From contig NZ_CP012109.1 in the NCBI RefSeq assembly GCF_000280925.3, forward strand, positions 3,864,501-3,928,500: a stretch of 64,000 bases of DNA, read 5' to 3'. Source of the stretch: Myxococcus hansupus. GTDB taxonomy: Bacteria; Myxococcota; Myxococcia; Myxococcales; Myxococcaceae. A program made the position numbers and the translations under genes. Below are positions 2,992 to 40,556 of this stretch, piece after piece; the first letter of the stretch is position 1; the number at the start of each line of letters is the position of its first letter. Under the pieces are notes generated by a model. It was not told the DNA's origin. It was given only the letters and a program-made list of their open reading frames with translations, and did not search any database.

Positions 2992-3048
2992 ATGGCGGCC
3001 GAGGCTATCACGACCCAACGGATGGACTGAACAGGGCTTGCACGCCGA

Positions 3049-4863: not shown

Positions 4864-4887
4864 CGGGCGCGGGCGGTAAACTGGGGG

Positions 4888-8150: not shown

Positions 8151-11100
8151 GTGCTCCTGGTTGACCTGAAGCGGGGCCTGGCGCTGGTTGCGCTGGTGGC
8201 CGGACTCGTTGTCGCGGGCAGCGCTCAGGCGCAGTCGCGCGTGGCCACTGCGTTTCCGCTGACGCCTCTTCGGCCGGGGACGACGGCGCTCGACCTGGGC
8301 CTGTCCGTGGAAGGCGACGCCCGCCAGATTCGCGTCGCCGTGAAGGCGACTTCGGCATCGTCCGGCACGGTGGTGGACGTGCGAGACCTGGTGGTGAACC
8401 GGGACCTGGCTGGCGCGGTGCCGTTCCACGTCCGGGTGCCCCTGCGCCGGGAGCTGCCGTCGGACGCCGTGGTGGAGGTCGAGGCATCCCCCACGGAAGG
8501 CGGCACGGGGACGCCGCTGATCGCCCAGTTCGATTTGACCCAGGCGCCTCCCGTCGTTCCCGCGGGCTCGGTGCGCGTCAACGCGAGCCAGGACCTGTCG
8601 CACCTCGTCGTCAGCGTGCAGGCCCAGGGGCCCGTGGCGTCCGCGGAGCTGACGCTCGTCGGCGCGTCGGTGGAGGCCCTGCGGCGGGTGCAGGGAAGCC
8701 TGAGCGACGCGGAGTCCGTGGCCTTCGCCAGCGTTCGGCGGCTGATGTCGCGCCCGCGCGAGCAGAACTCGGGGCAGATCGACTTCGTCGTCCCCATGCT
8801 CAATGGAACGCAGGTTCCCGCGGATGGCGTGGTGGTGGTGGATGTCGCCGTCCAGGACCCCTACGGACGGGTCGTCAACACCTCCGCCGTCGAGTTCACC
8901 AGCGGGCGCGCGTTCGATCCGCTCGTGGGCATCTCGTTGAGCCCGTCTCCCTTGCTGCTCTCCGGAGGGTACGGTTCGTCCGTGCCGGTGCAGGTCACGG
9001 GGCATTTCTCGCTCGCGGGAGATGTGAACCTCAGTGGTGCGCTCCAGGGCGTCGTCTACGCGTCCTCCGATGCATCCATCTTCGTCGTGTCGCCGGAAGG
9101 CGTCGTCCAGGCTCGGAATGACGGGACGGCCACGCTGACTGCGACCTTCGCGGGGGTGACCGAGACCGCGGTTGTCGTGGTGGACTCGGATGCGGACCTC
9201 GTTGGGGTCCAGTTGCTGCCCTTGCAGCCCACGGTGGAGCGCGTGGGCGGGACGTTGGCACTGCGCCTGGAGGGCATCCTGTCGGATCCCGCGGCGCCAA
9301 CGGGTGAGCGTCGCGTGGACCTCACCGCGGGCAGCCTGGGAACCGTGTGGACCTCCGAGGCATCGGATGTCGCCACGGTGGGGCAGGACGGAAGGGTGAC
9401 GGGCTTGCGCCCGGGCGTGGCCCGGATTCGCGCCGTGCATGACGCCTTCAATGCGTCCATCGACGTGGCGGTACGCGACGGTGCTCCCACCATCCGAATC
9501 GCGGCCCCCTCGACGGTGACCGCCGGAACCTCCTTCGATTTCCATGCGACCGCGACGGACGACATCTCGGTGTCGTACGTCGAGTTCCTGGTCAACGGGG
9601 TCCCCGCGGGCAGGGACATGGAAGCGCCGTACTCCATGCGCATCCAGGCCCCTCCGTATGGTGGCGCCACCATGTCGCTGTCCGCGGCGGTCGTGGACAG
9701 CGGCGGCCAACGGGTTGAAGCACCGGTGGTGAAGGTGCGGGTCGCGGGCGTTGCCGCACCGAGCACCCAGCCCGTGGTCATCGAGGCGCCGACGCCTGGC
9801 TCTCTGCTCGTTCAGGGGCTTCCCCAGGTGCTGCGTGTCACGAGCGGGGCTTGGACGGGTGGCGGCCTTTCGACCGAGGACTTCCAGGTCGTGCGGTACT
9901 ACGTCGACGATGTCTTCGCGGGCTCCGTGGACCTTCCGCGGGTCGAGATTCGCAGGCATCCGAATACGGGGGACATCATCCCCGTCCCCCTCTGGGAACT
10001 CACCTTCACGCCTCGGTCCGGCACGGCTGGAACGAGCCTCGCCATTCGGGTGGAGGCCCTGGATCGAGGCGGTGCCCTGGTCCGGTCCGACACCTTGCTG
10101 GTGCGCGTCGTCCGGGACACGCCACCGCTCTTGAGCGTGGAGCAGCCTCAGACGGCCACCGCGGACGCCGTTGCGGGCACGCCTTTCCGCGTGACGGGCA
10201 CCGTGAGCGATGACGCCCTGGCCTTCGGCACCCAGGTGTCGCTGCGCGTGGATGGCACCACCGTGGACGCCGTGCGTGTCGCGCGCGGAGGCACGGGCGG
10301 AACGGCGTCGGGGAGCGAGCGGTTCAATCTGGCGTGGACGCCCGCTCGTACAGACGTGGGGCGCGCCCGCAGGTTGGAGTTGGTGGCGACGGACAGCGCT
10401 GGGAATGTTGCGTCCAGGCTCTTCACCGTCACGGCCAAGGCCAATGCCGCGCCCCACATCGCCATTCTTTCCCCAGCCTCATCCCTGGTGCTGGTGGGCG
10501 GAAGCCAGGTCCGGCTCACCGCGAGCGTGACGGACGACACGCCCGACCCCGTGGAGGTCCGGTGGCTGGTGGGGGAGTCAGTCGTAGGCAGATCCTCCGT
10601 ACCGCCTTACAACGTTGCCTACACACTGCCGTCCGTTACGGCGTCCACGGAGTTGACGGTCGTCGCGGAAGCCCGCGACTCCGCGGGGAACACCGCCCGA
10701 ACCCAGGTGAAGTTCTTCGCTGTTCCGGACACCAAGGCGCCCGCGGTGTCCTTCGTCGTTCCCAGGAACAACGTGTCGGTGCCCCGGACGAGTGACCTGC
10801 TGGTCACCGTTGCGGGGCTCGATGACGTCGCCGTGTCCAAGGTGGAGATCCTCCTGAACGGCACGGTGGTCTTCACGGACAACGCGCCCGGAACGCAAGG
10901 CGGCGTGCGGGGATCGTTCGTCACGCACACGGTGCTCACGGCGGCCCAACTGGGGACCGCCGCGACGCACACGTTGGAGGCCAATGCCTACGATTCGTCG
11001 AACAACGTCGGCGTGGCGCCCAAGGTCACCGTCAACACCACCGACGATGCCAAACCTTCGGTGGCGTTCGCGCCGTCCACGCCGACCGAGGCCACCGTGG

Positions 11101-14100
11101 GCACGGACATCCACGTCGAGGTGCTCGCCACCGACGACGTGGGTGTCACGTCGGTGGAGCTCCTGGTGAATGGCGTGTCGAAAGGCACGGCCGTGGTGGC
11201 GCCGTACCGCTTTTCGTTCACCGTCGATGGGCCGCCGGGCACCGTCCGACTGGAAGCCCGGGCGCGCGACCAGGCTTCTGAATCCACGGCGGAGGCCTTC
11301 CTCACCGTGGTTCCGGACACCCGCAAACCGCTGGTGACCTTCCGCGCGCCGCTCCTCGGCGCTCCCGTCTTCGCGGGGCGTCCGCTTTCCGTGGAGGTCG
11401 CCGCGGCCGACGACGTGAAGGTCGCGAGGGTCGAGTTGTTCGCGCCCCACAGCCTGGGTGCACTGACCCAGGGCACCGAGGAGAACCTGTACCACGTGTA
11501 CCGGTGGTCGCTGCCGGCCACCGCCATTCCCACGGAAGGGAAACTGAAGCTGAGGGCCGTGGCCACGGACTCGTCTGGACTCACGGCGGAGCGGGAGCTC
11601 GAGGTCGCGGTGGTCGAGGACCTGCCGCCCGTGGTGACGCTGACGTCACCGGCCTCTGGGACGATCTACAAGGAAGGTGAGGACGTCCGCATCGTCGCCA
11701 CGGTGGGCGATGACGACGGCATCATCGGCATGATTGGCCTGTCGGGAGGGCAACGGCAGGGCGTTCTTCCCGAAACGGGACCGGTGATTCCGATCAGCGC
11801 CCAGCAGTCCTTCACCGTCTGGGCGCCCATCATCAGCCAAGGCGCGCTGCCGACCGTGGGCGTGGAGGTGCGGGATACAGCGGGCCAGACGGGCAAGGCC
11901 GAAGTACACCTCTCGGTCCGAGCGGACACCGAAGCCCCGACGGCGGAGTTGCTGGCACCCGCGGCACCAAGCAATGGCGGCCCCTTCTCCGTGCGATTCA
12001 ACGGCGCGCTGGGCGTGCGGGTCGCGGTCCAGGACGACGTTCGTGTGGCGAAGGTCGAGGTGGAGCTGGCGGCTCAGGACGGGACGCGTGTGCCGCTGGT
12101 GGGCGCGGACACCCTCCTGTCCGCCAAGGACAGCCGTTACGAGGAGACCCGGGTTCCGAATCCGCTCGCGCCTGGCGAGATCCTCATCAGCCGTCGGTTC
12201 TTCGCGAGCTTCGAGGGCACGGTCAAACTCCAAGGCGTCGCGGCGGGACAGTACGTCCTCAGGGCACGGGCCTTCGATCCGGCGGGCAACGCCACGCCCA
12301 CCCAGGACCTGGCGTTGGAAATCGTCGAGGCCCAGGACTCAGAGGCCCCTCGCGTCACGATGCGGTTCCAGGGCACGCCCTCCGACAAGTCCTGTGTGGC
12401 CGGCTCCCAGATCACGCTCCATGTCGACGTCACGGACGACGGCACCATCCAGACGTTCAGCGCGGAAGCCGACAACGCGCCGCTCGAAGTCACCGGCTTC
12501 ACGCCCGGGCCGCGCGTCTCGCGCACCTGGGACCTGACGCTGCCCGCGCTGGGGACGTTTGGTTCCCGGACTTACACCGCCAAGGCCCAGGCGACGGATG
12601 CCGTGGGCCGCACGACCCACGCGAGCGTGAGCTGTGAGTTGGTGGCGGATGTCCCGGCCGTGGTGCGCTGGGTTCAACCGGCGAGCGGGGGAGGGTTGAT
12701 CGAGGAGGCGTCGCAGGCCGCCGTGGTGGAAGTCGAAGAAGACACGGGCATCGGCGCGGCCTGGCTGCTGGCGACGACCGTCGCGCCCGTGAACTTCACC
12801 GGCGAGGGCCGCTTCCTGCTTCCGACGTCAGGGGCGTCCGGGAACGCCTACGGCTCCGCCATCCGGTTGGAGTTCGGGCCTGCTCAGGCCTTCGCGGTGA
12901 CCGCGGGTCCCACCGCGTTGGAGGTCTCGACACCGGCCACGGGTGTGGTGACGGGCGAACCCCGACGCCTCATCTTGACCGCCGAGCCCGAAGCGGCAAC
13001 CGGCCTCAAGGCCGAGGTCCGCTACCAGTTCACCGTGACGCCAGGGATGGAGGGGAACGCCTCCGTGCAGTCCTTCATCGCCCGGCATCCGGGTGGCGTG
13101 CGCCAGGTGGACTTGAGCACGGCGCCCCACCAGGCGGACCTGACGTTCCCCTCTGGACTTGTCGTGGAGGACGTCCGGGTGGCGTTCCTCGCCCAGCCGG
13201 GAACGAACGCGACCTCCGCTGTTTCGGACGTAGGCATTCGCTACGAAAACCAGTTCGTCCAGGTCCGGGCCGGGGCGGGTGGTGAACGGATGACGGCGCA
13301 GCCCTGGGCGATGACGGTGACGCCCGGGAAGAGCACGCCCGTGAGAACGGACTATCGCCTGCCGGCGGGCTGGTCCCCGAGCCCTGTCACCCTGAGCGCG
13401 GTCGTTCGTGACCTCGCGGGCGCTGTGACCTTGCGAAGTCAGCAGGTGGCCGCCGTTCCCGACACCCAAGGGCCCGAGGTCCGAATCAGCCAGCCCATCG
13501 CGGGAAGCTCCGTGGTGGCCGGCATGCCATTCACCGTGCGCGTCCAGGTCCGTGATGCGGTGGAGGTCCGTCGCGTCGAACTGCTCGTGGATGGAGCACC
13601 TCGGGGGACGCGAGAAGGACGTGACCTCACGGACGTCGGCTTCCCCATCTCCATTCCGGCGCCAACGGCCGGCGTCCCGATCGCCATCACGGCCATTGCC
13701 GTGGACCAGGCTGGCAATGCGTCCGTGTCGCAGCCGCTCTACCTGGATGTCCACGAAGACAGGCCGCCGCAGGTCGCGCTGCGACGGCTCAGGTATGACC
13801 TGACGCCGCAAGGAGGAGGGCTCCACAACATCTCCGAGACCGAGCTGAACAGCGGCTATGTCCGGTTGATTCAGGCCGTGCCGCACTCGGTGGATGTGGC
13901 CGCCAGCGACGACGTCGGGCTGGCGCAGATTGAAATCAGCTACCTGGGCGCCACCCTACGGTCCGTCACGCCGCCCGCGGGAGCGCGGGAGGCCCTTGAG
14001 ACCGTGACGTTCACCCCGCCGCCCGGGGCGAACGGTGCCCCCACGGTCTTGCAGGTCCGGGTCACCGATACCTTGGGCGCGCAGCAGTCACTGCGACTCG

Positions 14101-26507: not shown

Positions 26508-29500
26508 AGCGGGGCAACACGGTCTACGTCGCAGCCGGTGCGGGAGGCGTCCGCGTCGTGGATGTCTCGAAGCCCGCCGACATCGAAGAGGCTTTCCTGC
26601 CGCTCGAGGTCAGTGGCGCGGCCACGGACATCGCGATGGGGGGCTCGCTGCTCTTCGTGGGTGACGCGGAGGGCGTGAAGGTGTTCGACCTGGCGGATGG
26701 CAGCCGTCGTCCGCTTCGCGTCGGCAGCCGGGTCATTCCGGGTGGCGTGAGTGCGATGGCGCTGCACCGCGGCAACCTGCTGGTCTCGAGCGCCTCCGTG
26801 GGGGCGCCCCTGCTGCATGTCCTCGACGCCCGGACGGGCGGTTTGAGCACGCACGGCACGGTCTCGCTCTCGGCGCCCGCGGTGCACATCACGGTGGAGG
26901 GAACGCGTGCCTTCGTTTCGCTTGGAAAGGCGAAGCAGGTCGCCATCTACCAACTGTTCGACATCCAGAACCCGGCGCCGGCAGGCACCCTGACGGTGGA
27001 CGGGCTCGTGGGAGGGTGGGCCTCCGCCGAGCAGACCCGGGTGGCGGGAGGCGTGGCGTACGTGGCGGCCGGAGGCGGCAAGGTGCTGCGGTTCTCCGTT
27101 CGCGAAGGCGAGACTCCCGTGCAGTTGGGCCGCGCCACGGTCGTCGGCGATGCACGAACCCTGGCCTTCATGGGGCGCTATCTCCTCGTGGGGACGTTGG
27201 TCCTCGACAAGTCGGGGACGCCCGTCGAACTGCCCGTGAGCGATCCGGCGGATGCGTCGCTGCCGCTCGCGGGGGCGCTCGCCTCCGTGGAGCTCGACAC
27301 GCTGGACATCCGGGGTACGCATCCACGAGACGGGGAGGTCGTGTCGCCGGGTGAGTCGGCGCAGGTCCTTTTGACCGCGCTTCCAGAGGCCACGAGTGCC
27401 ACCGAAGTGACGCTGTACCGGCGGACGCCCGAAGAGATGGTTTCGGTGGCCCGGCAGGTACTCCCGGATGTGCAGGGGGGCCAGGTGGTCCTCACGCCGT
27501 ACTCGCCGCTGGCGTTGGATACGGCCTACGAACTTCGAATCGGCGCGGGCCTGAAGGACCTTCGTGGCGCGACGTTGGGGACAGAGGGGAGGGTGCGGTT
27601 CCGGACCAGCCTGGATGCCTCACCGGAGCGTCCTGAGATTGCCTCCGTGACGCCCGCTTACGGGCTGACGGCCGGTGGCAACGAAGTCGAGCTCCTGGGG
27701 AGCGGGTTCCGAAGCGGTTGCACCGTGACGATTGGCGGCATCCCCGCGCCCATTCAGGAACTGGCATCCGACGGAAGTCGCATGCGGGTGCTGGCGCCCG
27801 CGGGGCTTGCCGGAGCCGCGGCGGTCGAAGTCACGAACCCGGGTGGACTGTCTCACCTCTTGCTGGGGGCGTACCGGTATCTGGTAGCGCCCGTGCTGAC
27901 GGATGTTCAGCCGCGGCATGCGACGTTCAACAGCCGCGCGGTGGTGCGGGTGACGGGCGAGGGGCTCTTCCCCGGGTCGCAAGTCCACTTCGACACGGTG
28001 CCGGCACATTCCGTGGTCATGGACGATTCCGGAGCGTTGCTCGTCACGGTCCCGGATCAGGTGATCGGCCGTGTGGCGCTGACCGTGCTCACGCCAGGAG
28101 CGAATCCTCAGCAGGGGACGCTGCAAGGCGGGTTCACCTTCAGCCTGGCGGAACGCACCCGGCTCAACGACATGGGCTCCGTGCTGGCTCGCCGGGGCAA
28201 CCTCGTCTTCGCGGCGCATACGGACAGGAGCCTCTCCGTCGTGGATTTCGCCGTGGCGGGAAGTCCTGGAGTCCTGGGCTCGGCGGTCAATGGCGTCAGT
28301 GGGCCCGTGGACATGGTCATCCACGGGGATGACCTGTTCTTGGCGGGGCGCAGCGAAGTCGTCCGGTACAGCATCGCGGAGAATGTGTGCGGGACTTCCC
28401 CAAGTGCGCCTTGCAGCCCGCTGGAACTGGAGCGGGTGCAGTTCGCGCTTGCCCCCAACGTCGGGTTGAGGGCAGTCGCGGCGGGAGGCGCTGGCGCCTA
28501 CGTCGCCGTGGCAGGGGGGAACGAGCTGGCGCTCATGTCCCCGATCAATGGCGCATATGAAGTCATCGCGCGAACGTCGCTGGGGTCTGGGACGGTCATC
28601 GATCTGGACGTGGTTGATGACGCGCTGCTCGTGCTCGTTCAGGACGGAACCCAGTCGCGGCTGGAAGTGCGCAGCACCGAAGGCAGTGCCTTGCCGTTGC
28701 TTGGCGAGATTCCCCGGTTGGGAAGCCCCATGGGAGGAATGGCGCGTGAGGGCAGCCGAGTGGCGGTGTCCGCGGGGACGCAACTGCACCTCATTGACGT
28801 CACGCATGGGAGCGAGCCCCAGATCCTGGCCTCCGCGGTGGATCCGAATGGCGGTTCCTCCGAAACGCTGACCCTGAGCGGTCCCTGGCTGTTGGCCAGC
28901 AAGGGAAGCCGGGTCTCCTGGCTGGATACGTCTCAAGGCTCCACGTTGGTGGAGCGCACCTTCGCGAGCATGGGGAGTTCGGTTTCGAGCGCGGCGATCG
29001 TCAATGGTGTCGCGGTGGTGAGCGTCGCCAACTCGCTGCGGGTCCTCGATGTGCCGTACCCCACGGTCGATGCCCTGCGGCCGTTGCCCGGCGCGGCCAT
29101 CGCTCGAAACGGAAGCGTTGCCGTGGGGCTCCCCACGGCGTTGCCAGGCGCGGTGCTGTCCGGCTCGACGCTGCAGCTCTGGGCTGGTGCGCTGCAGGTG
29201 GTGGGCAACACGGTGCCTTCAGGGACGGCACTGACGTTCGTTCCGTCGAATCCTCTGGATTCGGAGCGAACCTACGTTGCCCGGTTGGTGCTCGCGCCGC
29301 TGCCCTCCGTGACGGGGGGGCGTCTCCTGGCGCCTTGGGAGTATCCCCTGCGTGCGGGCGGGGTGCCGATGTCCCTCCGGGTGGATGCGGTATCGCCTGC
29401 CAGTGGCCCGGTTGCCGGAGGGATTCCGGTCACGGTGTCGGGCTTCGGTTTTGGAACCGCTCCGAAGGTGCTCTTCGGCGGCGTGGAGGCCGTGATCGTC

Positions 29501-29880
29501 GGGGAGGTGCAGGACAACCTTCTGACCGTAACGCTCCCTCCGTCCGTGGCCGCGGGGCCGGCGGTGGTCCGGGTCGTCCGCGGTGACGGTGCGAGCGCCG
29601 TTGCGGTGACGCCCTTCGTGTATGCCGCACCGATGAGCTTCGTCGACGTGACGCCAAGAACCGTGGACGTGGCGGGCGGCTGGGTCACGATCTCGGGCGT
29701 TGGCTTCCATCACGGCTTGGAAGTCCGTTTCGATGGCGCTGTCGCGTCGACCCAGGCCAACCGGGCGACCAGCGTTCAAGCACACGTGCCCTCAGGAGGG
29801 CTTGGCCACCTGACGCTCACGCTGTCCCAGCTTGGCTCCGATTCAGTCGTCGTTCCGAATGCGGTCTACCGCGGTGACGT
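16720..29880 (+). repeat. Seven tandem supermodules: propeller-like block + Big_5-like domain + two IPT/TIG domains
   Basis: The same order recurs with a period of about 1.7-2.2 kb. Propeller-like blocks (LVIVD-type, xGLxVVDVSxPxxPxLL) begin near 16720, 18545, 20523, 22385, 24570, 26265 and 28150. Big_5/SbsA-like domains begin near 17720, 19655, 21543, 23697, 25418, 27305 and 29074. TIG pairs begin near 18036, 19997, 21867, 24027, 25739, 27629 and 29373. TIG units open with xVxPxxGPxxGGTxVxIxG and close with GAFLY or GGFVY. An eighth Big_5-like domain follows at about 29882. Boundaries are by eye and may be off by tens of bases. Confidence 0.7.
26411..26417 (+). other. Frame-change site in the giant gene: G_GGG_GGC heptamer
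   Basis: The upstream frame reads AAG GGG GGC here, and the last base of AAG with the next two codons forms G_GGG_GGC, a pattern of the X_XXY_YYZ slippery class. Slipping back one base gives ...TGKGGLVVANLSEP..., which restores the propeller motif exactly (compare GLAVVDVTHPE near 24810). The same result would follow if the natural run were G7 and one G were missing. An AGGA sequence at 26400-26403 lies upstream at a distance where SD-like stimulators occur in dnaX-type sites. No strong downstream hairpin was seen. Confidence 0.6.
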
Positions 29881-32800
29881 GCGCGCCCCGGAATGGGAGC
29901 GCATCGAACCTCTGGACACCATCAGCAACACGAACGTGCCACTGACGTCTGTGTTCGACCTCCGGTTCGATGAGCCGTTGTCGACCGCGAGCGCTGGCCT
30001 GTTGCAATTGCGCCTCCACCCCTCGGGCGTCCCCGTTCCGGGCGTTTCTCAGCTCCTGGCGGATGGGAGAACCCTGCGGTTTACCCCCGCGGAGAGCCTC
30101 CGCTCGACGACGTACTACGCCGTGACCGCCACGGGAGTCACCGACGTCGCTGGCAACGTGGCCCGCGTCTACACCCGGAGCTTCCGCACCCTGGACATCG
30201 TGAAGCCGACGGTCGAGATCCGCCGTTTGGGCGGAGCAATCGTGGTGAACCAGGACTCATTCGCAGCGGGCGTGAACTGGACGTTCCAGGTTGTGGGGAC
30301 CGACGACAGCGGGCCTGTCGTGACGACCGCGCTCAGTGTGAATGACATGCCCGTGCCCCGGTCGCCCTCCGGTCATTTCGTGTACCAGTGGCACCAGGAT
30401 GAGGTGAACACCTGCCAGGTCCTGAAAGCGACGGCGACGGATTCCAGCGGAAACATCAGCGACACCTTCTCCGTGGTGGTTCAGGTCGTCGAAGACTCAC
30501 CGCCCGAGGTCGATATCGAGCAGCCCGCTGCTGATATGTCGATCGAAGAGGGCGGCTCCGTAAGTGTCGTTGTCGTGGCCAGGGACAGTTCAAGCGTCAC
30601 ATCCGTGGAGTTCCACGTGGATGGCGTTCCGATGGCAAGGCTTGCGGGGCAAACGGGAACGCTCGTGACCCTGTCGCGCAGCATCCCGTTGGGCCTGCTG
30701 AAAGGCTCCGCGACCAGTGAGCAACGCGTCATGACGGCCTATGCGACGGACAATAAAGGCCAGGTCACTGCCGCTGCCCCTCGGACACTCACGGTGACTC
30801 GGGATTCCGTGCCTCCTTCGGTGGTGATGCGGACTCCCGTGACGGGGGCTCAAGTCGTCGGTGGCTCGAACTTGATGATTGAGGCGCTCGCCTCGGATGA
30901 GAACGCCGTCACGGAGGTCGAGGTTTTCGTCAACGGGGCCTCGGTTGGGCTGGCCCACACGCCGCCGTGGAGAGTTTCGTGGCAAGCGCCCTTCGTGTCG
31001 AACCCTGAGCCACACGTGGTTCGAGTCGTCGCACGCGATTTCAGAGCCAACGAGGGCGATGCTACGGCCGCATTCACCGTGGTGCCGTCGCCGACTCGCC
31101 CCTTCGCCGCGATCACGTCGCCGGATGCTGGAACGACGCTTCCGGAAGGGAAGCCCTTTGGCGTAACCGTCAATGCAACTGCTGCTGTTGCGATCGCATC
31201 CGTTCGTGTCACGGCAGGCACCGATGAACGCGTTTTGACGCAACCGCCGTGGCAGGCGGAATTCGTAGCCCCTGTGCTTGATGGCGGCACGGTACCGTTG
31301 GAACTCACGGCCCAGGTGACGGACGAAGCTGGCATGTCGAGCCACATTTCGCGCGTCCAAATCAATGTCGCTGACGACGGACAAAGCCATATTGGCGTCG
31401 CTCTTGTTCGCGAGCCCTCGGGTCCGTTGTTGCTGGGCGGAACGGCGCTTACGCTGAAGGGTGAAACCGACGGAGGAGTGACGCCCGAACTGTCGGCAAG
31501 CCTTGGGGACAGCCCAATGGCATTGAGGCACCTGCCAGGGGCCTCTTTGGCCGAGGCTCGGTTGCCCGAAGGTCCTGAAGGCGCGTCGGTGGTGATGCGG
31601 GCAACGGTCCAGGCCCCAGGCGGGGCGTCGGCCGTTGCCGAGCAGAATGGGACCTTGGCGGTGATGACCACAGGTCAGGCCCGGATTGTCGAGGACGCCA
31701 GCGACGTCTTGGAGCCAGTCGTCCTCGCCAGCCGAGGGGATCAGATTCTGGTCGTTCGCTCGGATGGTGGAGGTACTGGCGAGCTTGAGCTCCGGACTCG
31801 GCAGGCCGGTGCAAGAGTGGCCTCGCAGCGCTTTACTGGCACCCCAGTGGGTGCCGTATTCGTTGGTGATGAGATCGTCGTGGCCATTCGCAAGCAGGGA
31901 GCAGGGGCGCTTGAGCGCTTCACGTTGCCTGCCCTCATTCATAAGCCTTTGGAGTCGGTGCCTCTCGTTCGTGAGCCCCACGCAGTGGATGGGGCGAGGA
32001 ACTGGATCGCGGTGGCCACCGATCAAGGTATTGAATTGCGGCACGCCAACGGTGCGGTGGCGAGCCAGTTGTCGCTGGGGAACGTGACGGCTTTGGCTGC
32101 GGAAGGGCAAAGGATCTTCGCCACGACGACAACCGAGGTGGTGGCGATCGATGTCCCCATGGCCTCCGCGCCACGAGAACTCGCACGCACCGCCATCGAG
32201 GAGGCCCCCATCACGACGATTGCTGCGCTCGCTGACGGTGGCGCCTGCGTGGCTGGCAACGTAGTCCGTTGTTTCTCCTTGGTCGAAGCCGAGCACTCGG
32301 CAACGCACCTTCTGAGCAGAGGGACTGCTCCTCTGAACTCCGAAGCGCTCAGCGCCTCCGCCTTCGGAGAGTTGTTGGTGGTGGGGTCGCGTGATGGCGT
32401 TCGAGTCATTGACGTTCGAGGCACGCCCATGAGCGCAGGCATGTATCCTGCACTCATGGGACGGGCGGCGCTGGTACCCGGGGCGCTGGTGACTGGAACG
32501 TCGAAGGGCGTGTCTTACCTCCCTGTCGTCCGGGGCTCGGCAACGCCCCACGTCGATTTGAATCTGCCTGCAACGGTTCCCCAGGGCACACGCGTTCCAA
32601 TGTCCGCCCTGGTTTCGGATGACGCGCTGCCGCTCAACGGCTTCACCGCGGCTGTGGCCATCAATGGGGTGGTCGCCGAGACGCGTGACACGCGGCTTCC
32701 TCCTTGGATTGACATGCCCATGACGGGTGCATCCGCATCCGTGGAATTGGCGGTCCGGGATCTCGCGGGCCGCCACGTTGTGATTCAACGTGAAGTCTTG

Positions 32801-35800
32801 TTGAGTGAATCTGGGCAGGAATCGGGGCCCGCTATCGCGAATGTGATCGTGCCCACGGAAGTAGGGGAGGGCGCTTACTTCTCGTTCGTGGTGTTCCCAG
32901 AACACCCGGCGCAGGTGGACCGAGTGGAGGTATCCGTCGCGGGGGGCGATCCTGTCCTATTCGTAGCGCCAGGGTTGGCCGGCGAACTCCTTGCCCCCGA
33001 AGTTCCAGCGGGAGCTCCTAGCGAGGTCCAGGTCACGTTTGTTGCGCTGACTGCGCAAGGGACGCGAGGTCCGCCACTGACACGAACGGTGTTGGTCCAT
33101 GATGGCGCGGCGGCGCAACGTCCCGTTATTGCTACACTACGGCGCGCCAACGCCTCGCCCATTTACGAAGGAGCGCGTGTCCCGATCGAAGTGGCTGTCG
33201 CGAGCACGACCGGCGGCGAAAGCATCCTGTTGCGAGTCGATGGACAAGAAGCCGGGCGCGTGAGCGGCGGCCATGCAATCGTCCCCGTGCGGATCCCCTT
33301 CGGAGGTGGAACGCGCACGGTGACGGTGACCGCCGTCGCCAGAAACGGGGCTGGGCTCGAGTCCGAACCTGCCACGTTGGCGCTCAACGTCGTCAACGAT
33401 GTGACGCCGCCAACCATTGTTGCCATCCACACCGACCCATCTGGAGAGTACGTCTCGGCCGGGAGTGAGATGACCGCGAGTGTCTCCGCGACAGATGATG
33501 ATGCCGTGGAAAGCGTCTCCCTCGAACTGTCTATCGACGAGGTTCGCCACGCTCGCGGTGGATGGGAGCTTGTGTATCGAATCCCGCCAGACCTGCCGCA
33601 GGGGACAGTCCTGACCCTCCGCGCTCGTGTTGAAGACCGGGCCGGCAATGTTTCGACCCAAGAGTTGACGCGCACGGTAACCGGAGCCGTCGTGCTTCAC
33701 TCCTTGGCCAACGTCGCGCTCGAAAGCGCCTCTCGACTCGCCCGATTGGGGGACCGGGTCTATGTCGCTACTTCAACAGGGCTCTGGATTGGGCAGTTGG
33801 GAGGCTCCACGGAGGCCCCCCTTCTTTCGACTCTGGGTACGCTGACAACCCCCAAGGCGCCTGTCGGGGTCGCGGTGCTCGATCAGCTTGTCGCGCTTGC
33901 GATCGAGGACGAAGGCTTGTGGCTCATTGATGCCAGTGTACCGGCGTCCCCAAAGGTGGTGTCTCGCGTTTCAGGAACTTTCACTGGCGTAAGCGCGTCC
34001 GACAAATTCTACGTCCTGCGAAAACCGATTAGCACCCAGTATCAAGTCCACTCCATCGATGTTAGCGATCCGAGTTCTCCGGTTCTAGCGGTGTACGTAA
34101 ACGCAAGCAGTGAGCGGCGCGTTCTCGTGGAGGCCAACTCGGACGGGCCCGTTTTCATACAGGGCACATCAAAGATTCAGGTGCCAATTGTGTATGGCAC
34201 GGGAAACGCATCCAACCACGTCTTCGACGTCGGTCCGGCATTGGCTCGAGCGGCGGAAAGGGATGGGGACCTTGTCGTTATTGGCACGGACCGTTCGCTG
34301 CATGCATTTGTGGGCGACGCCCTTTCTCGAACACAGGTTCCGACTCCAGTGGTTTCAGTACCCTCCGGCGTCCGAGCGCTAGAGGTCGTGCGTGGCATCG
34401 CCTACGTGGTCAGCGACGATGGTTGGTTGCAACTCGTGGATTATCGTGAGCCCCTCGCGCCCAAAGTGATGTCTCGAATCCGATTCGAGGCGCATGCTGT
34501 TCAGATTGGCGGCGGCCTTCTGCTCTCGACAAGCACATCGGGTGTTCACGTCACGCGGTTGTCGAGATCCGGTGAGGGGATCGCAGCCGGCAGCGTCCAC
34601 GTGGGAGACAGTGCGCTGGGCCTCGCCCCGTTCCGAGGAGGAGCCCTGGTTGCGGCACGTTCGTCTGGAACTCGGCCTGTTGATGTCTCGGGAGGAAGGG
34701 CTCCGCAGCTACGAAATCCATCTGAGCCAGGCTCTAATGTTCGCCAGGTGGAAAGCTGGCAGCGGAGTGTTTTCTCACTCGACGGACAAGCCATCCGCGT
34801 TTCGGGCGTGAATGAAGTGCTGGGTGGGCGGCTCCAACTGCATGGCGCCAATTCAAGTGCGCTTCAACAGGCGTTGGGAGCGGTTGAACAGTTCTCGGTC
34901 GCGCCCGGCCGCGTCTGGGCTATCTCTTCAGCGGGAGGCGTGAGTACGGTAAGGTGGCCTTTGACCCCCGTACCTGACAGGCAATCCCTGGCCCTTGGGC
35001 GCGCGGCTTTCGGAATTGCAGGAAACGAACGTCGAGCGCTCGTGGCATTGGGGGAGCAGGGGGTTGCCGTGCTCGAGGTGGCTCCATCGGGCCAACTTCG
35101 TCATCAAGGCATTCTTCCAGTTTCAGCATCAGTCGTTGCATTGGACGGAAACTTGGCGGTCACGGGTGGAGCCAATTCAATTTCACTTTTCAATCTAGGG
35201 TCAGACGGGGCACCTCAGTTGATCGGGACCCTACCCACGGCTGGCGAGGTCCAACGGATTCGCCTTGAAGGCCGACTGGCGATCGTTAGCGAAGGCGCTG
35301 CTGGCGTTGAAGTCTGGCACATCCACGAGGGGGAGCCAGCTGAACGACTGGCTTTGCTGAGTGCATCAAGCGCACAGGATGCCGTATTTACATCAGGTCG
35401 CATTCTAATCGCAGACGGAGATTCGGGACTCGTTCATTCATATACCGCTCCTCATTCGGCCACCCCGACAGTGCGAATCCTTTCAGACGGCGGACGCTTG
35501 GAGGCAGAAGCCGGTGGTCAAATCAATCTCACGGGCATTGCTCATGGTGTGGGGATCGATGACGCAGTTCTGGTCATCAACGGCCACGCGGCCACCCATC
35601 TTGACGAAGCGGATTTGAGAGCAAGCTGGACCTTGCCCAATAATGCGGTGCCAGGAAGCGTTTACTCAATTCAGATTCGTGTCTATGACGCTGGAGGACT
35701 GACGGCCACGTCGCAACCAGTTGAAGTCTTCGTGGTGCCGTCTTCTGCAACCCACCCCAGTGTCAGTGTTTCGGCAGGAGGGCACAGCACCCTCTATTCC

Positions 35801-38800
35801 GGAGCAGTCGTGGACGTGATAGCGAACAAGAACAATGGGCTGCCTCCATTTACCGTTTCAGCGCGCCTGGGCACTGCGTATCTTGGAACGCTCCAGCAGA
35901 CAGCAACCAACGTAAATCGTTTCGAGGGGTCTTTCCGTATACCCATCTTCGAATCTTCAGGCTCCATGCCATTGGCGGTGATCCTGACGGATGGGGCGGG
36001 GCGAACGGCGGAAGCGTTCGTCAACCTCAACGTTGTTGGAGACACGCAGCCGCCAGGCACGCCCAGCGGGCTGCCCCCTGAATTGCGAGCGGGTCCTTAC
36101 GTCCATCAATTGACCTTGAGAGGCTCCGACGATGGAATGCACTGGCTCGAGCTTGAACAGGATGGACGCCTGATCGCTGTTTCGCCAGAGCGGACAGGAA
36201 GCATTGCCTTCCAGTATTCACTCCGCCTGCCGGACGACGCTGTCGGACAGACAATAACGCTGGCATTGACCGGCGTTGATCAAGCCGGGCGCCGGACGCG
36301 AATCACGCAAAGCTATATCGTCCTTCCGGACGGCTCTGCTCCAACGGTTACGTTCCCCTATGGTCTTCCCCACCTATCCGCCAAGGAGGGCGAAACAATT
36401 TCCGTCAATCCCTCTGCCAATGACGTGGATAGAGATCTGGCAAGTATCCATGTTTACGCCGATGGAGTGGAGATTGGCTCGACGACATCGTCGTCCGTAC
36501 TCATCAGACATACGCTCCCTAGACTGAGCGAGCGTCCCCATGTGGTGTTCAAGGCTGTCGCTACTGACTCACGTGGACGCACGGCGACAGTCGAACGCAC
36601 GACGGTTCTACTCCCCAATCCACCTCCGACCTTCAATTCCTCGGTGTTGCCAAGTCAGCCAATCCAGCGGGATACGGTGAAAGTGTGCGCACGGGCGTTC
36701 GATGACGTCAGCATTGTTGACCTCGTCGCCTCGGTCGACGGGGTCGCCATGACGGAGCCTGGATCATGCTTCACTCAGGCATGCAGGGAGCTTTGCGGAA
36801 CAATCACATTGAGTGCGACCGCGACGCAGCTAGAGATTGCGGCGAGTGCGACGGACAACCTGGGCGCCACCACGAACCTGGCCCGGATCATCCCCGTGGG
36901 CGTGAACCGACCGCCTAATGTCACGTTGAACGCACAGACCTATATGCTTGTTGGACAACCGCGAGAGTTCCTCGGCAATGCCACGGATGAGCGGAACACT
37001 CTCGCCTGGGCGGAGTTCCGGGTGAACGGCGTCGCCGTGGGCGATCGCTTGATTTCTCCGACAAGCGGCAGTTCGCTTCGGCGGACTTACACTCCCGTGT
37101 CCAGTGGTATGGCTCGAGTCTCGCTGGTCGCTCAGGACCAACACGGGCAAGTGAGTGAGTCATTTCAAGATGTCGTGGTGCTGGATGCGAGATATCCGGC
37201 AGACTCCACCCCTGTCATTTCGGCTGAGGATCTCAGTTTCGAAGGGCAAGACATCATCGTTCGGAGCGGTCAAACCCTCCAAATCGACGGCACGCATACG
37301 TTCAGAAATCTGTATGTCTTGCAGAACGCAGTGGTGACCCATGCGCCCCAAGCGAACGCTGGGACTCACTTCCTGGATCTCACGGTCTCGAACGAGGTTC
37401 GGATCTATGCCACCGGCAAGGTAGACGTGAGCGGACGTGGTTATCTGGGTGGGTGGCAGCCTGGGAATTCTGATCGAAACGGGAAAAAGCAAGGCAATGC
37501 TCCGACAGGAGCAGACTCCGCCGCAGGCAGTCATGGTGGATACGGACAGGGGCTTGCTCAAGCAGGGGTTGAATCTCCTGTGCCCATTTACGGCGACTAC
37601 AGGGATCCCTCGGAGCCGGGCTCTGGCGGTTCCGGAGGAGCGGCCACAAGCGCTCTCGGCGGGAACGGCGGCGGTTTGATTCGATTGCAAGCGGCGTCAA
37701 TTCGCTTGGACGGCGAATTGCTCGCAAACGCAGAGTCAGGTAGCACCAACAACGCCAGTTACGGCGGTGCCGGTGGTGGAATCCGAATCGACGTGGGAGC
37801 CCTGACAGGCACCGGTGCGATCCGAGCCAATGGCGCGGGACGTTCCGCCCCCTACGGCGGCGGTGGTGGCCGTGTCGCGATCTACTACAATTCTGAGACG
37901 ACTGCGTTTGATTGGTCCAAGGTCGAAGCCAAGGGGCAGTATGCAAACGCAGGCACGGTCTTCCTGAAGGGGAATGCTCAGGAGTACGGTGAGTTGGTTC
38001 TGGCGACATACACGGGCAATAGTCTTCAGTTCACCAATCGCGCGAAGCCTACGCCTGTCGATGGAGGGACCTTCGACCGTTTCAATCTGTACGGCCATGG
38101 CGACGTCGAGGTGATGGGCCCGCTCACGACGCCTGTGCTTGAAATTGAACGAGGTGTTCGTGTCACTTTCCATGGCGAGGTGACGGGATCCATGGAATCG
38201 ATTCGCGTGCTCGGAGGGAGCCAGGTCACCCTGCGCCAGCCCTGGGCATTCTTGCCCGGTGTCTCAGTGGAACTCGCGGGAGTGCTTTCGGTTGCGGGGG
38301 GTGCACCTCTCCACCTGTCGAGCTTGAGCTTGACTCAGAACGCAAGTGCCCTGAAGCAGGTCCGAAGCACGGATGGCCTGCCACAGCCGCTGGAGGTGTT
38401 CGTCAACGGCCATGTGGATCTGGTTACGGGCTCAAGTATTGACGTGACCGGATTGGGTTATTTGGGCGGCTGGCAAGAAGGGAATGAATCGCGTACGGGA
38501 CTTACGTACGGGAACCAGTCGACCGGCGTGGAGTCGGCTGGTGGTAGTCACGGCGGATACGGCAGGACGGAGCAGCACCTGACTGAAGTCGCTCCTGTAG
38601 CGACTTATGGGGATTACAAACTGCCGTCGACCTTTGGCACTGGAGGTTCGGGCGGCCCAGCGAACCCCAGTGGCACTCCGCCTCTCGGTGGCAACGGTGG
38701 AGGTGCTTTGCATTTGAAGGCCAACTCCATTCGCGTAAATGGCCTGCTCCTCGCCAATGCGAGTCCGGGGACCGGTGCACTCGCCTCGGGGGGCGCGGGA

Positions 38801-39220
38801 GGAAGCATTCTCCTGGAGACCGGGGCACTCACCGGGACAGGCCGGATTGAGGCGCGCGCGGCGAGCAATTATGGAGGAGGAGGCCGCGTGGCCATCTATT
38901 ACGACATGTCGACATCGACATTCTCCTTGAACAACGTTCACGCGCCAGGCTCGAATAACGGGGGGGCAGGGACAATCTATCTCAAGGCCCTTCAGGCGGC
39001 ACATGGCGATATCGTCTTCGACAATGGAGGCACGTCATTCGACCCGCTGCGTTCGAAGCCGACAGAACTGTTCGCAACGCCTGCAGGAGAACAGACGTTC
39101 CGAAACTTCACCGTCAAGGGCAGGGCTGTGGTCTTTACGCCTGATGCGTTGGAAGTCACCGGAACGCTGACGGTTGAATCAACCTCTCGACTTCAGTCCC
39201 AGAACATCATCAGGCCATGA
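26420..39220 (+). CDS. Giant exported protein, C-terminal part (propeller, Big_5, IPT/TIG, Ig-like, duplicated Gly-rich domain)
   Basis: An open frame of 4266 codons in the -1 frame relative to the upstream part. The first possible start is GTG 26420, but it lies inside a propeller block, has no proper ribosome spacing and no signal peptide, so I read it as the continuation of the same protein. It holds the rest of supermodule six, supermodule seven (to 29880), a Big_5-like domain, Ig-like modules (about 30200-31390 and 32540-33690), propeller blocks (31680-32520 and 33695-35460), more Ig-like modules (35461-37200) and a duplicated Gly-rich domain (37210-39217). One Ig-like module near 36625-36900 has four Cys, unusual for this protein. 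The stop overlaps the next gene by ATGA. Joined to the N-terminal part, the product would be about 10,356 residues. Confidence 0.85.
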   Translation: MVANLSEPTHVTVISSLEFPGEGGSNRVLKRGNTVYVAAGAGGVRVVDVSKPADIEEAFLPLEVSGAATDIAMGGSLLFVGDAEGVKVFDLADGSRRPLRVGSRVIPGGVSAMALHRGNLLVSSASVGAPLLHVLDARTGGLSTHGTVSLSAPAVHITVEGTRAFVSLGKAKQVAIYQLFDIQNPAPAGTLTVDGLVGGWASAEQTRVAGGVAYVAAGGGKVLRFSVREGETPVQLGRATVVGDARTLAFMGRYLLVGTLVLDKSGTPVELPVSDPADASLPLAGALASVELDTLDIRGTHPRDGEVVSPGESAQVLLTALPEATSATEVTLYRRTPEEMVSVARQVLPDVQGGQVVLTPYSPLALDTAYELRIGAGLKDLRGATLGTEGRVRFRTSLDASPERPEIASVTPAYGLTAGGNEVELLGSGFRSGCTVTIGGIPAPIQELASDGSRMRVLAPAGLAGAAAVEVTNPGGLSHLLLGAYRYLVAPVLTDVQPRHATFNSRAVVRVTGEGLFPGSQVHFDTVPAHSVVMDDSGALLVTVPDQVIGRVALTVLTPGANPQQGTLQGGFTFSLAERTRLNDMGSVLARRGNLVFAAHTDRSLSVVDFAVAGSPGVLGSAVNGVSGPVDMVIHGDDLFLAGRSEVVRYSIAENVCGTSPSAPCSPLELERVQFALAPNVGLRAVAAGGAGAYVAVAGGNELALMSPINGAYEVIARTSLGSGTVIDLDVVDDALLVLVQDGTQSRLEVRSTEGSALPLLGEIPRLGSPMGGMAREGSRVAVSAGTQLHLIDVTHGSEPQILASAVDPNGGSSETLTLSGPWLLASKGSRVSWLDTSQGSTLVERTFASMGSSVSSAAIVNGVAVVSVANSLRVLDVPYPTVDALRPLPGAAIARNGSVAVGLPTALPGAVLSGSTLQLWAGALQVVGNTVPSGTALTFVPSNPLDSERTYVARLVLAPLPSVTGGRLLAPWEYPLRAGGVPMSLRVDAVSPASGPVAGGIPVTVSGFGFGTAPKVLFGGVEAVIVGEVQDNLLTVTLPPSVAAGPAVVRVVRGDGASAVAVTPFVYAAPMSFVDVTPRTVDVAGGWVTISGVGFHHGLEVRFDGAVASTQANRATSVQAHVPSGGLGHLTLTLSQLGSDSVVVPNAVYRGDVRAPEWERIEPLDTISNTNVPLTSVFDLRFDEPLSTASAGLLQLRLHPSGVPVPGVSQLLADGRTLRFTPAESLRSTTYYAVTATGVTDVAGNVARVYTRSFRTLDIVKPTVEIRRLGGAIVVNQDSFAAGVNWTFQVVGTDDSGPVVTTALSVNDMPVPRSPSGHFVYQWHQDEVNTCQVLKATATDSSGNISDTFSVVVQVVEDSPPEVDIEQPAADMSIEEGGSVSVVVVARDSSSVTSVEFHVDGVPMARLAGQTGTLVTLSRSIPLGLLKGSATSEQRVMTAYATDNKGQVTAAAPRTLTVTRDSVPPSVVMRTPVTGAQVVGGSNLMIEALASDENAVTEVEVFVNGASVGLAHTPPWRVSWQAPFVSNPEPHVVRVVARDFRANEGDATAAFTVVPSPTRPFAAITSPDAGTTLPEGKPFGVTVNATAAVAIASVRVTAGTDERVLTQPPWQAEFVAPVLDGGTVPLELTAQVTDEAGMSSHISRVQINVADDGQSHIGVALVREPSGPLLLGGTALTLKGETDGGVTPELSASLGDSPMALRHLPGASLAEARLPEGPEGASVVMRATVQAPGGASAVAEQNGTLAVMTTGQARIVEDASDVLEPVVLASRGDQILVVRSDGGGTGELELRTRQAGARVASQRFTGTPVGAVFVGDEIVVAIRKQGAGALERFTLPALIHKPLESVPLVREPHAVDGARNWIAVATDQGIELRHANGAVASQLSLGNVTALAAEGQRIFATTTTEVVAIDVPMASAPRELARTAIEEAPITTIAALADGGACVAGNVVRCFSLVEAEHSATHLLSRGTAPLNSEALSASAFGELLVVGSRDGVRVIDVRGTPMSAGMYPALMGRAALVPGALVTGTSKGVSYLPVVRGSATPHVDLNLPATVPQGTRVPMSALVSDDALPLNGFTAAVAINGVVAETRDTRLPPWIDMPMTGASASVELAVRDLAGRHVVIQREVLLSESGQESGPAIANVIVPTEVGEGAYFSFVVFPEHPAQVDRVEVSVAGGDPVLFVAPGLAGELLAPEVPAGAPSEVQVTFVALTAQGTRGPPLTRTVLVHDGAAAQRPVIATLRRANASPIYEGARVPIEVAVASTTGGESILLRVDGQEAGRVSGGHAIVPVRIPFGGGTRTVTVTAVARNGAGLESEPATLALNVVNDVTPPTIVAIHTDPSGEYVSAGSEMTASVSATDDDAVESVSLELSIDEVRHARGGWELVYRIPPDLPQGTVLTLRARVEDRAGNVSTQELTRTVTGAVVLHSLANVALESASRLARLGDRVYVATSTGLWIGQLGGSTEAPLLSTLGTLTTPKAPVGVAVLDQLVALAIEDEGLWLIDASVPASPKVVSRVSGTFTGVSASDKFYVLRKPISTQYQVHSIDVSDPSSPVLAVYVNASSERRVLVEANSDGPVFIQGTSKIQVPIVYGTGNASNHVFDVGPALARAAERDGDLVVIGTDRSLHAFVGDALSRTQVPTPVVSVPSGVRALEVVRGIAYVVSDDGWLQLVDYREPLAPKVMSRIRFEAHAVQIGGGLLLSTSTSGVHVTRLSRSGEGIAAGSVHVGDSALGLAPFRGGALVAARSSGTRPVDVSGGRAPQLRNPSEPGSNVRQVESWQRSVFSLDGQAIRVSGVNEVLGGRLQLHGANSSALQQALGAVEQFSVAPGRVWAISSAGGVSTVRWPLTPVPDRQSLALGRAAFGIAGNERRALVALGEQGVAVLEVAPSGQLRHQGILPVSASVVALDGNLAVTGGANSISLFNLGSDGAPQLIGTLPTAGEVQRIRLEGRLAIVSEGAAGVEVWHIHEGEPAERLALLSASSAQDAVFTSGRILIADGDSGLVHSYTAPHSATPTVRILSDGGRLEAEAGGQINLTGIAHGVGIDDAVLVINGHAATHLDEADLRASWTLPNNAVPGSVYSIQIRVYDAGGLTATSQPVEVFVVPSSATHPSVSVSAGGHSTLYSGAVVDVIANKNNGLPPFTVSARLGTAYLGTLQQTATNVNRFEGSFRIPIFESSGSMPLAVILTDGAGRTAEAFVNLNVVGDTQPPGTPSGLPPELRAGPYVHQLTLRGSDDGMHWLELEQDGRLIAVSPERTGSIAFQYSLRLPDDAVGQTITLALTGVDQAGRRTRITQSYIVLPDGSAPTVTFPYGLPHLSAKEGETISVNPSANDVDRDLASIHVYADGVEIGSTTSSSVLIRHTLPRLSERPHVVFKAVATDSRGRTATVERTTVLLPNPPPTFNSSVLPSQPIQRDTVKVCARAFDDVSIVDLVASVDGVAMTEPGSCFTQACRELCGTITLSATATQLEIAASATDNLGATTNLARIIPVGVNRPPNVTLNAQTYMLVGQPREFLGNATDERNTLAWAEFRVNGVAVGDRLISPTSGSSLRRTYTPVSSGMARVSLVAQDQHGQVSESFQDVVVLDARYPADSTPVISAEDLSFEGQDIIVRSGQTLQIDGTHTFRNLYVLQNAVVTHAPQANAGTHFLDLTVSNEVRIYATGKVDVSGRGYLGGWQPGNSDRNGKKQGNAPTGADSAAGSHGGYGQGLAQAGVESPVPIYGDYRDPSEPGSGGSGGAATSALGGNGGGLIRLQAASIRLDGELLANAESGSTNNASYGGAGGGIRIDVGALTGTGAIRANGAGRSAPYGGGGGRVAIYYNSETTAFDWSKVEAKGQYANAGTVFLKGNAQEYGELVLATYTGNSLQFTNRAKPTPVDGGTFDRFNLYGHGDVEVMGPLTTPVLEIERGVRVTFHGEVTGSMESIRVLGGSQVTLRQPWAFLPGVSVELAGVLSVAGGAPLHLSSLSLTQNASALKQVRSTDGLPQPLEVFVNGHVDLVTGSSIDVTGLGYLGGWQEGNESRTGLTYGNQSTGVESAGGSHGGYGRTEQHLTEVAPVATYGDYKLPSTFGTGGSGGPANPSGTPPLGGNGGGALHLKANSIRVNGLLLANASPGTGALASGGAGGSILLETGALTGTGRIEARAASNYGGGGRVAIYYDMSTSTFSLNNVHAPGSNNGGAGTIYLKALQAAHGDIVFDNGGTSFDPLRSKPTELFATPAGEQTFRNFTVKGRAVVFTPDALEVTGTLTVESTSRLQSQNIIRP
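37408..39010 (+). repeat. Duplicated Gly-rich C-terminal domain of the giant protein
   Basis: Two copies, about 37408-37990 and 38413-39010, share the order: GxGYLGGWQxGN, GSHGGYG, YGDY, GSGGSGG, LGGNGGG, SIRxxGxLLANA, GGAGGxI, GALTGTGxI, YGGGGRVAIYY, and NAGTVFLKG or GAGTIYLKA. Between and around them are beta-rich segments with FxNLYV or FRNFTVKG motifs. The pattern suggests a beta-helix or Gly-rich surface domain. I do not recognise a named family. Confidence 0.65.
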
Positions 39221-40119
39221 TTCAATCTTTCACCAAGCGGGGCGCTTCGGCGCCCAATCGGTCCCGGTGTTCCCGGTGGATATCTGTGCTTTTTCTGACA
39301 CTCGTGCCCGTTCACGGGTGCCGAGACGCAGATGTGGTCGCCCAGGTTGGAAGGACTGAACTTCGGCGCGCGGATGTTCAAGAGTTCGCGTCGAGGAGGG
39401 CCGGTGAAATTACCGCCGATGCGCAGCTCGACGAGCTGATTGACCAGGCTCGCCTCTCGGAGCGAGCTGTCGCCCTGGGACTGGATGCGCGCGAAGAGAC
39501 GCGCGCTCGGCTCGCCGCGGCTCGTCGTGAAGTCCTGATGCAAGCGCTCCTTCAAGAGGAACTCAAGAGCGTTACAAGCGAAGCGGACTTGCTCGAGCGT
39601 TATGAGTCCTCAAAGTCATCGCTTGCGCGCAGGCAGATTCATGTGCGGCAGGTCGTCATCCGGTTGCCACCTGGGGACGGGCAGCCCGAACGTCGCCAGG
39701 CGGGTGACCGTGCGAACATGATCTATGCCCGCCTCATGGGAGGAGAACCTTTCGAAGTGGTTGCTCGTGAGGCAAGCCAGGATGACGTCTCCGCGGCGCA
39801 AGGCGGAGACCTGGGCATCGTGAGGGAAGGCCAGGTTCACCCCGCCTTCTTCGAGGCGGCAGCGGCCTTGAAAAAGGGCGAGCTGAGCAAGCCATTCGAA
39901 ACGCCTTACGGCATTCATGTGGTCCAGGCGCTGGAGCACATGCAAAGCGTGTTGCCGACCTTCAACGAAGTCAGGGGCCGTCTGGCGGCAGAGGCTCGGC
40001 GTGAGGCGGAAAGCCGTTTGATGAAGGAGCTGGAAGCCAGCATTCCCGTCAAGCGCTTCCCCGACGCATTGTCGGCACCTGCGACGAACGCTCCGAAGAC
40101 GGGAGATGTGACGCGATGA
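39217..40119 (+). CDS. Parvulin-type peptidyl-prolyl isomerase (third copy), probable lipoprotein
   Basis: A 300-residue foldase. ATG 39217 overlaps the stop of the giant gene as ATGA, implying translational coupling. The N-terminus is long and basic before a hydrophobic run (WISVLFLTLVPVHGC). The possible lipobox V-H-G-C (Cys35) has an unusual His at -2. A SurA-like helical part precedes the parvulin core: RRQIHVRQVVIRLPPGDG, MGGEPFEVVAREASQ, AAQGGDLGIVREGQVHP and FETPYGIHVVQALE. This is the most canonical parvulin core of the three in the locus, with the GGDLG and YGIHVV motifs intact. Immediate coupling to the giant gene suggests it folds that product or the RHS proteins after export. Confidence 0.88.
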   Translation: MIQSFTKRGASAPNRSRCSRWISVLFLTLVPVHGCRDADVVAQVGRTELRRADVQEFASRRAGEITADAQLDELIDQARLSERAVALGLDAREETRARLAAARREVLMQALLQEELKSVTSEADLLERYESSKSSLARRQIHVRQVVIRLPPGDGQPERRQAGDRANMIYARLMGGEPFEVVAREASQDDVSAAQGGDLGIVREGQVHPAFFEAAAALKKGELSKPFETPYGIHVVQALEHMQSVLPTFNEVRGRLAAEARREAESRLMKELEASIPVKRFPDALSAPATNAPKTGDVTR

Positions 40120-40556
40120 TTTCCTCGCGATACCTCGTTGGGACTCCGGCTTCGCCCTATGGGCATCGAGCAACAGTGTTGCGAAGCCTGTTCCTGGGTC
40201 TGTGTCTGTCTTGGGGCTCCGGATGTAGTGAGAAACCAGCCCCCGTCGAGGAAACGCTGACAGAAGCGCCGACTCAGGCTCCTGCCGTTCAGCCGGACCA
40301 CCAGTTCGTTCCGGCCAAGCAGCGAACCAAGGAGCTCGGGGAGCGGTGTGCCTCGGGTGGAGAATCCGAATGTCTCTCCCGGCTGTGTCTGCGGGCGGGG
40401 CCTCGGCTCGATGCGGACTATTTCTGCAGCCAGCAATGCAGCAGTGAGAACGACTGCCCGAAGACCTGGGGTTGTATCCAGATTCATCCTTCCGCCGGAG
40501 GGCAGGTGTGCGTCCCGCCCAAGGGCTGGACGGGCGCCGTCGCGGAGCCTCGATGA
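40116..40556 (+). CDS. Cys-rich putative lipoprotein
   Basis: A 146-residue protein overlapping the upstream parvulin gene by ATGA. A hydrophobic segment ends CLSWGSGC (Cys37), a weak lipobox. A GTG at 40176 would give a shorter, more typical signal (VLRSLFLGLCLSWGSGC), so the start is uncertain. After a Pro/Thr-rich linker the C-terminal about 70 residues contain eight Cys with the spacing seen in many secreted Myxococcota Cys-rich proteins (GERCASGGESECLSRLC ... FCSQQC ... NDCPKTWGC ... VCVPP). It is likely a small disulfide-bonded envelope protein. Its function is unknown. The stop overlaps the next RHS gene, again by ATGA. Confidence 0.75.
   Translation: MISSRYLVGTPASPYGHRATVLRSLFLGLCLSWGSGCSEKPAPVEETLTEAPTQAPAVQPDHQFVPAKQRTKELGERCASGGESECLSRLCLRAGPRLDADYFCSQQCSSENDCPKTWGCIQIHPSAGGQVCVPPKGWTGAVAEPR

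Follow-up and report, generated by a model that had tools for sequence, protein, structure and literature searches.

The B/C cocoons of Tc (ABC) toxins bring an Rhs shell and beta-propellers together in one system, as does the gene cassette of Myxococcus hansupus described here, in which, however, the propeller repeats lie in a separate protein of some 10,000 residues. In M. xanthus, large Rhs proteins contribute to kin discrimination; they need no type VI secretion, and a CDI-like route is presumed (PMC10433427, a review). Two of them, Rhs4 and Rhs5, are about 4,000 aa long, carry signal sequences and have their toxins at the C-terminus; by description they are like the Rhs protein RHS2 of the present locus, but the cited passages of the review mention no 10,000-residue partner (PMC10433427). 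Bacterial teneurin-like proteins, frequent in Myxococcota, are likewise lipoprotein toxins of the YD/Rhs type with N-terminal adhesion modules and immunity genes, and the cited part of their description reports no obvious delivery machinery (PMC13018210, 2026). With respect to the FN-plug/NHL superfold set out there, RHS2 was compared by Pfam only, which gave no NHL match in RHS2 at E 0.001.

Two systems from other lineages are also comparable in outline. Giant1-5 of Apilactobacillus kunkeei are extracellular, thousands of residues long and encoded side by side, but they come from another phylum and no Rhs toxin is mentioned in the cited parts of the paper (PMC12863079). A module of Thermococcales, in the passages that describe it, similarly has a large hypervariable Ig-domain protein upstream of variable conflict genes, but it is archaeal and is likened to the present locus by description and not by homology (PMC8416519). 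No paper on a giant-protein/Rhs pair of the kind reported below came up in searches of the open-licence PMC literature.

The window, that is the whole stretch of DNA that was analysed, comprises 64,000 nucleotides (bases 3,864,501-3,928,500) of the M. hansupus chromosome, a single contig of 9,490,432 bases. Its principal feature is a coding region of about 31 kb, the giant gene, which runs from a GTG at 8151 to a stop ending at 39220 and is divided between two frames according to the ORF list and translations (Table 1); the open frame around its 5' part begins at 8100. To either side of the junction Pfam identified Big_7, TIG and Big_5 modules, with Big_7 Ig repeats followed by TIG/IPT, LVIVD propeller and Big_5 blocks in the 5' part, and TIG, Big_5, Big_7 and Big_13-like modules in the 3' part. 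No LVIVD match was obtained by Pfam in the 3' part, where propeller-like repeats were recognised by our own reading only. The translation begins with what we read as a putative Sec signal peptide. For the C-terminal end, a phmmer search of the last 600 residues against the PDB returned nothing at E 0.1, and an AlphaFold model of the last 559 residues, made with no alignment, had a mean pLDDT of 48, too weak to use.

Table 1. Features of the giant-gene locus of M. hansupus, in window coordinates
Feature	Position	Strand	Description	Basis
PPIC1	7143..8075	+	PPIC-type peptidyl-prolyl isomerase just upstream of the giant gene	Pfam Rotamase/Rotamase_2
Giant gene, 5' frame	8151..26507	+	6118 codons from GTG 8151	ORF, translation, Pfam
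G6 run + C	26411..26417	+	Site at which the frame steps back by one (-1), probably a consensus error	Sequence; relatives' alignment
Giant gene, 3' frame	26420..39220	+	4266 codons from GTG 26420	ORF, translation, Pfam
PPIC2	39217..40119	+	Second PPIC-type isomerase, overlaps the giant-gene stop, in variable zone	Pfam Rotamase_3
RHS1	40553..44707	+	1,384 aa Rhs-core protein, no recognised toxin tip	RHS_repeat, Rhs_assc_core, YD_repeat
RHS2	44922..58820	+	4,632 aa Rhs protein: Ig-like N-terminal part, Rhs core, variable tip	Pfam/NCBIfam
Ankyrin-repeat protein	58817..59314	+	Overlaps the RHS2 stop, candidate immunity protein	Pfam Ank

Downstream of the giant gene, the translation of RHS2 begins with a putative lipoprotein-like start (own reading), and Pfam assigned DUF6531 and Rhs repeats to it. 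The tip of RHS2 weakly resembles BURPS668_1122-type deaminases, with a score of 19.7 bits that lies below the Pfam cut-off of 29.6. The ankyrin-repeat protein that follows is a candidate for the immunity protein by its position only. Strong matches to RHS1 were seen only beside the giant-gene copies of G023, G018 and G002, with one weak match beside that of G116.

The 3' ORF of the giant gene sits one frame back (-1) from the 5' ORF and both are open throughout. In the zero frame the run, six G at 26411-26416 followed by C, reads G_GGG_GGC, and beyond it the 5' frame continues for about 30 out-of-frame codons to its stop at 26507; an AGGA core ends seven bases before the run. The sequence-only reading had described two adjoining frames of 6118 and 4266 codons linked by a single -1 step at the G6 run, a junction in the middle of a propeller block, and a gene free of other stops or frame breaks over 31 kb. 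The ORFs and translations confirmed the first and the last of these, and our own reading of the translations likewise placed the junction within a propeller block.

The same gene was examined in related genomes. The six nearest copies, with identities over the queried stretch of 90% (G023), 74% (G018), 72% (G016), 70% (G002) and 68% (two copies in G011), all have 12 bases between two conserved codons at the junction, where M. hansupus has 11. None of the six contains a G run longer than three at this place, and in all six the protein reads straight through; the two-frame layout with its G6 run is thus conserved in none of them, their frames being continuous. The comparison of orthologues had been proposed in the sequence-only reading as a choice between G6 and G7: one extra base and a whole frame were indeed found in all six, but no G7, the runs being at most three long.

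Surveys of wider scope gave a similar picture. Within the genus (27 genomes including M. hansupus, queried with the piece of the giant gene after the junction), 17 copies were found in 13 other genomes, and 15 of the 17 have frames of 10,378-11,397 codons; the two shorter ones are in G016 (8,616 codons) and G041 (4,589 codons). Across 195 Myxococcota genomes, queried with the N-terminal 600 residues of the giant protein, there were 41 copies in 37 genomes, M. hansupus included, and 33 of the 40 outside M. hansupus consist of one frame of 9,682-12,712 codons. The remaining seven are all in drafts of at least 800 contigs. Six of these run off their contigs, as deduced from position and frame length for the copies in G110, G115, G114, G066 and G161 and from the open frame in G016, the short G041 copy being the only one of the seven without a contig-end check. 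In the 195-genome survey the giant gene turned up in 13 genera, 11 of which have it whole. The product of about 10,356 residues envisaged in the sequence-only reading agrees well with the open frames of 10,378 codons in G023 and G018. The best explanation for the 31 kb is a single modular protein, exported and about 10,350 residues long, which by residue count exceeds a megadalton.

Because the relatives carry the giant gene whole, the likeliest cause of the split is a single base dropped in error from the consensus, which was built from PacBio reads only; to this reading we assign a probability of about 0.8. The M. hansupus genome (CP012109) was sequenced on the PacBio RSII with P6C4 chemistry at 138x and assembled by HGAP with Quiver, and the cited sections of its report mention no second technology (PMC4765838). 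To this may be added a survey of indels in four M. hansupus regions (three of 100 kb, at 1.0, 5.5 and 7.5 Mb, and one of 188.5 kb surrounding the window) against the syntenic stretches of G018, G006 and G023, in which ORFs were required to show a third-position excess of substitutions and to be unbroken in both other members of each comparison. In these four sampled regions, 4 of 139 conserved genes are broken in the M. hansupus assembly, compared with 0 of 343 in the relatives (0/172 in G018, 0/136 in G006 and 0/35 in G023; p = 0.007). Besides the giant gene, the breaks affect genes for a PilZ protein, a metallophosphatase-like protein and a CheA-like kinase, the last of these being broken in a poorly conserved linker; with the giant gene left out the count is 3/138 against 0/343, a modest excess. 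At the rate of 4/139, which includes the giant gene, about 0.5 breaks would be expected in 31 kb. An error needs no special assumption since the same assembly breaks other conserved genes, although coverage of 138x with Quiver polishing usually leaves few indels, which counts against it. A real and recent one-base deletion, which would have cut the gene in the sequenced strain and left an exported fragment of 6,118 residues with the C-terminal part lost, accounts equally well for one clean break unaccompanied by further lesions, and cultured strains can lose costly surface genes; that other conserved genes are broken in this assembly and none in those of the three relatives speaks against it, and we hold it to be unlikely. 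An older lesion is unlikely too. Changes on the lineage beyond the break number 323 synonymous and 161 nonsynonymous in M. hansupus against 359 and 220 in G023, so that selection there is not relaxed. Pairwise dN/dS relative to G023 rises from 0.18 before the break to 0.255 after it, which counts against the error reading, but relative to G018 it does not rise (0.20 and 0.19). The lack of relaxation in the 3' part renders an old lesion unlikely and is neutral on a very recent one. A decayed pseudogene thus appears unlikely from these comparisons, in line with the sequence-only reading, which had argued against an old pseudogene.

That reading had left two alternatives, a missing G in the gene for one long protein, through sequencing error or recent mutation, or a genuine -1 recoding site with two products, and had suggested in passing that the run might be phase-variable. 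The whole copies in relatives support the first. Programmed -1 ribosomal frameshifting at G_GGG_GGC would yield both a 6,118-residue and an approximately 10,350-residue protein, and the heptamer does fit X_XXY_YYZ in the zero frame at the junction, with the AGGA core seven bases before the run. However, none of the six nearest copies has the site or any need of a shift, the AGGA core is not conserved in G023, and an identical heptamer stands in frame at five other places of the giant gene (21497, 26638, 27475, 32941 and 38788) where no shift is wanted. No stimulatory RNA structure was detected 3' of the run (z = +0.45 for 83 nt and +0.28 for 53 nt relative to shuffles, in a model that does not cover pseudoknots), and frameshifting here is scarcely credible. 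Phase variation, in which reversible slippage at the G run would switch the long protein on and off, draws on the presence of a mononucleotide run at the break. Six bases are short for a contingency run, though, and G or C runs of at least six occur 12 times in the giant gene, the present one counted, while a G run longer than three occurs at this place in none of the six nearest copies, all from other species, which read through without it. It is very improbable, and neither recoding nor phase variation offers a probable account of the split. With the break most likely a consensus error, the strain probably has the gene intact and produces a single protein from it: the giant gene is whole in relatives and, by inference from them, probably whole in the M. 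hansupus strain. The frame break is probably no real feature, which matters to users of the M. hansupus genome.

The other breaks in the M. hansupus assembly lie near chromosome positions 1028114 (PilZ gene), 5535347 (metallophosphatase-like gene) and 1008335 (CheA-like kinase gene) and are absent from the assemblies of the relatives. Given these breaks in further conserved genes, the annotation of this genome is to be used with care. Two broader counts were set aside. A looser count of 12/157 broken genes against 0/312 was dropped, as it includes probable non-genes and complex differences in linkers; ORFs of 120 aa and 638 aa in it had no Pfam match and are absent from the strict count. Isolated gaps numbered 12 over 271 kb in M. 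hansupus and 8 over 547 kb in the comparison (p = 0.012); this count was not relied on, at least three of the eight mirroring gaps already scored in M. hansupus. The looser indel counts point in the same direction as the strict one, though with doubtful ORFs. At window position 4884, between the divergent genes 2641-4827 (-) and 4888-5961 (+, LpxR family), there is a one-base difference from G023 and G018; this gap is specific to M. hansupus and lies outside the strict list of broken genes. A literature search on PacBio indels and Myxococcus found nothing.

The giant gene is paired with RHS2. An RHS2 homologue adjoins it in all 28 testable copies (of 41, M. hansupus included), a testable copy being one with neighbouring sequence present on the side where RHS2 would lie; in 22 of these RHS2 is downstream, as in M. 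hansupus, and in six it is upstream. The other 13 copies are cut by contig ends (G016, G019, G025, G026, G066, G101, G110, G114, G115, G132, G144, G156 and G161). In G019, no RHS2 was found in the downstream stretch (L141) and the upstream side is missing, so that on a strict view it might be an exception. PPIC1 was matched on the upstream side of the giant gene in 22/22 copies for which one search covered that side and in 9 copies of another search, where the match in L137 is cut by the edge of the stretch. A second layout, in which RHS2 precedes the giant gene and PPIC1 has no match, was observed in L152, L154 and L156-L159 (the second copy of G002, G005, two copies in G013, G004 and G003).

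Furthermore, the two genes occur in the same genomes. When the N-terminal region of RHS2 was searched in the same 195 Myxococcota genomes, matches were obtained in 35, of which 34 have the giant gene too; three genomes have the giant gene only, one RHS2 only and 157 neither. In each of the three with the giant gene only (G101, G144 and G026) the copy is cut by a contig end; RHS2 alone was found in G065. Among 15 hand-picked genomes of no more than three contigs, 10 giant genes and 10 RHS2 genes are present in the same nine genomes and neither in the other six. The numbers of the two genes are equal in each of the nine, with two of each in G002.

Parts of the cassette vary strongly between species. 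Relative to G023, the first 22 kb of the giant gene are 88-94% identical, and the rest of it, together with PPIC2, declines towards 64% with no DNA match in places. Identity returns to 85-93% over RHS1 and the initial 5 kb of RHS2, then falls through the remainder of RHS2 until no match is left at its tip; the flanks are at 85-90% (left) and 90-96% (right). At the protein level, the identity profiles show that the C-terminal part of the giant protein is highly variable between species, the tip of RHS2 is 14-27% identical to those of G018 and G023, and PPIC2 is 59% (G023) and 64% (G018) identical, against 92% and 82%, respectively, for PPIC1. The window segments 30000-40119 and 50000-58820 combine strong divergence with a lower GC content (down to 0.57-0.59) in a region otherwise conserved at 85-96%.

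In the conserved parts of the cassette G023 is much closer to M. hansupus than G018 is. In contrast, M. hansupus is closer to G018 in the last ~670 residues of the giant protein, in PPIC2 and in RHS2 residues 3,301-4,500. RHS2 residues 1,801-3,300 follow another pattern, with G023 and G018 alike and M. hansupus apart. On the basis of three genomes, such a switch of nearest relative would fit the exchange of matched pairs together.

The pairing of the giant gene with RHS2 is observed directly; what their products do together is a proposal. The giant protein probably forms a fibre of great length, assembled from Ig/TIG and propeller modules and predicted to lie at the cell surface, and the two PPIC isomerases may help to fold it. 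The variable tip of RHS2 would be the toxin, with the downstream ankyrin protein as its putative immunity. The fibre may then act as a dedicated partner of RHS2, in the form of a tether, a scaffold or a target-recognition arm, and would hold, present or aim the Rhs toxin at the cell surface. We give close to an even chance to the giant protein being such a dedicated partner of a surface Rhs toxin. Against this role, genes that adjoin and co-occur are no demonstration of a complex, and there are the three genomes with only the giant gene and the one with only RHS2.

A tentative and broader proposal, which we place slightly on the doubtful side of even, is that Myxococcota possess a contact weapon built of two giants. 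A fibre of about 10,000 residues, inherited with a giant Rhs lipoprotein toxin, would be the missing component for delivery or target recognition, and the C-terminal part of the fibre and its PPIC2 chaperone would form matched pairs with the Rhs core and tip and diversify along with them. A dedicated giant partner would make the question of how Rhs/teneurin-like toxins are delivered testable by gene deletion.
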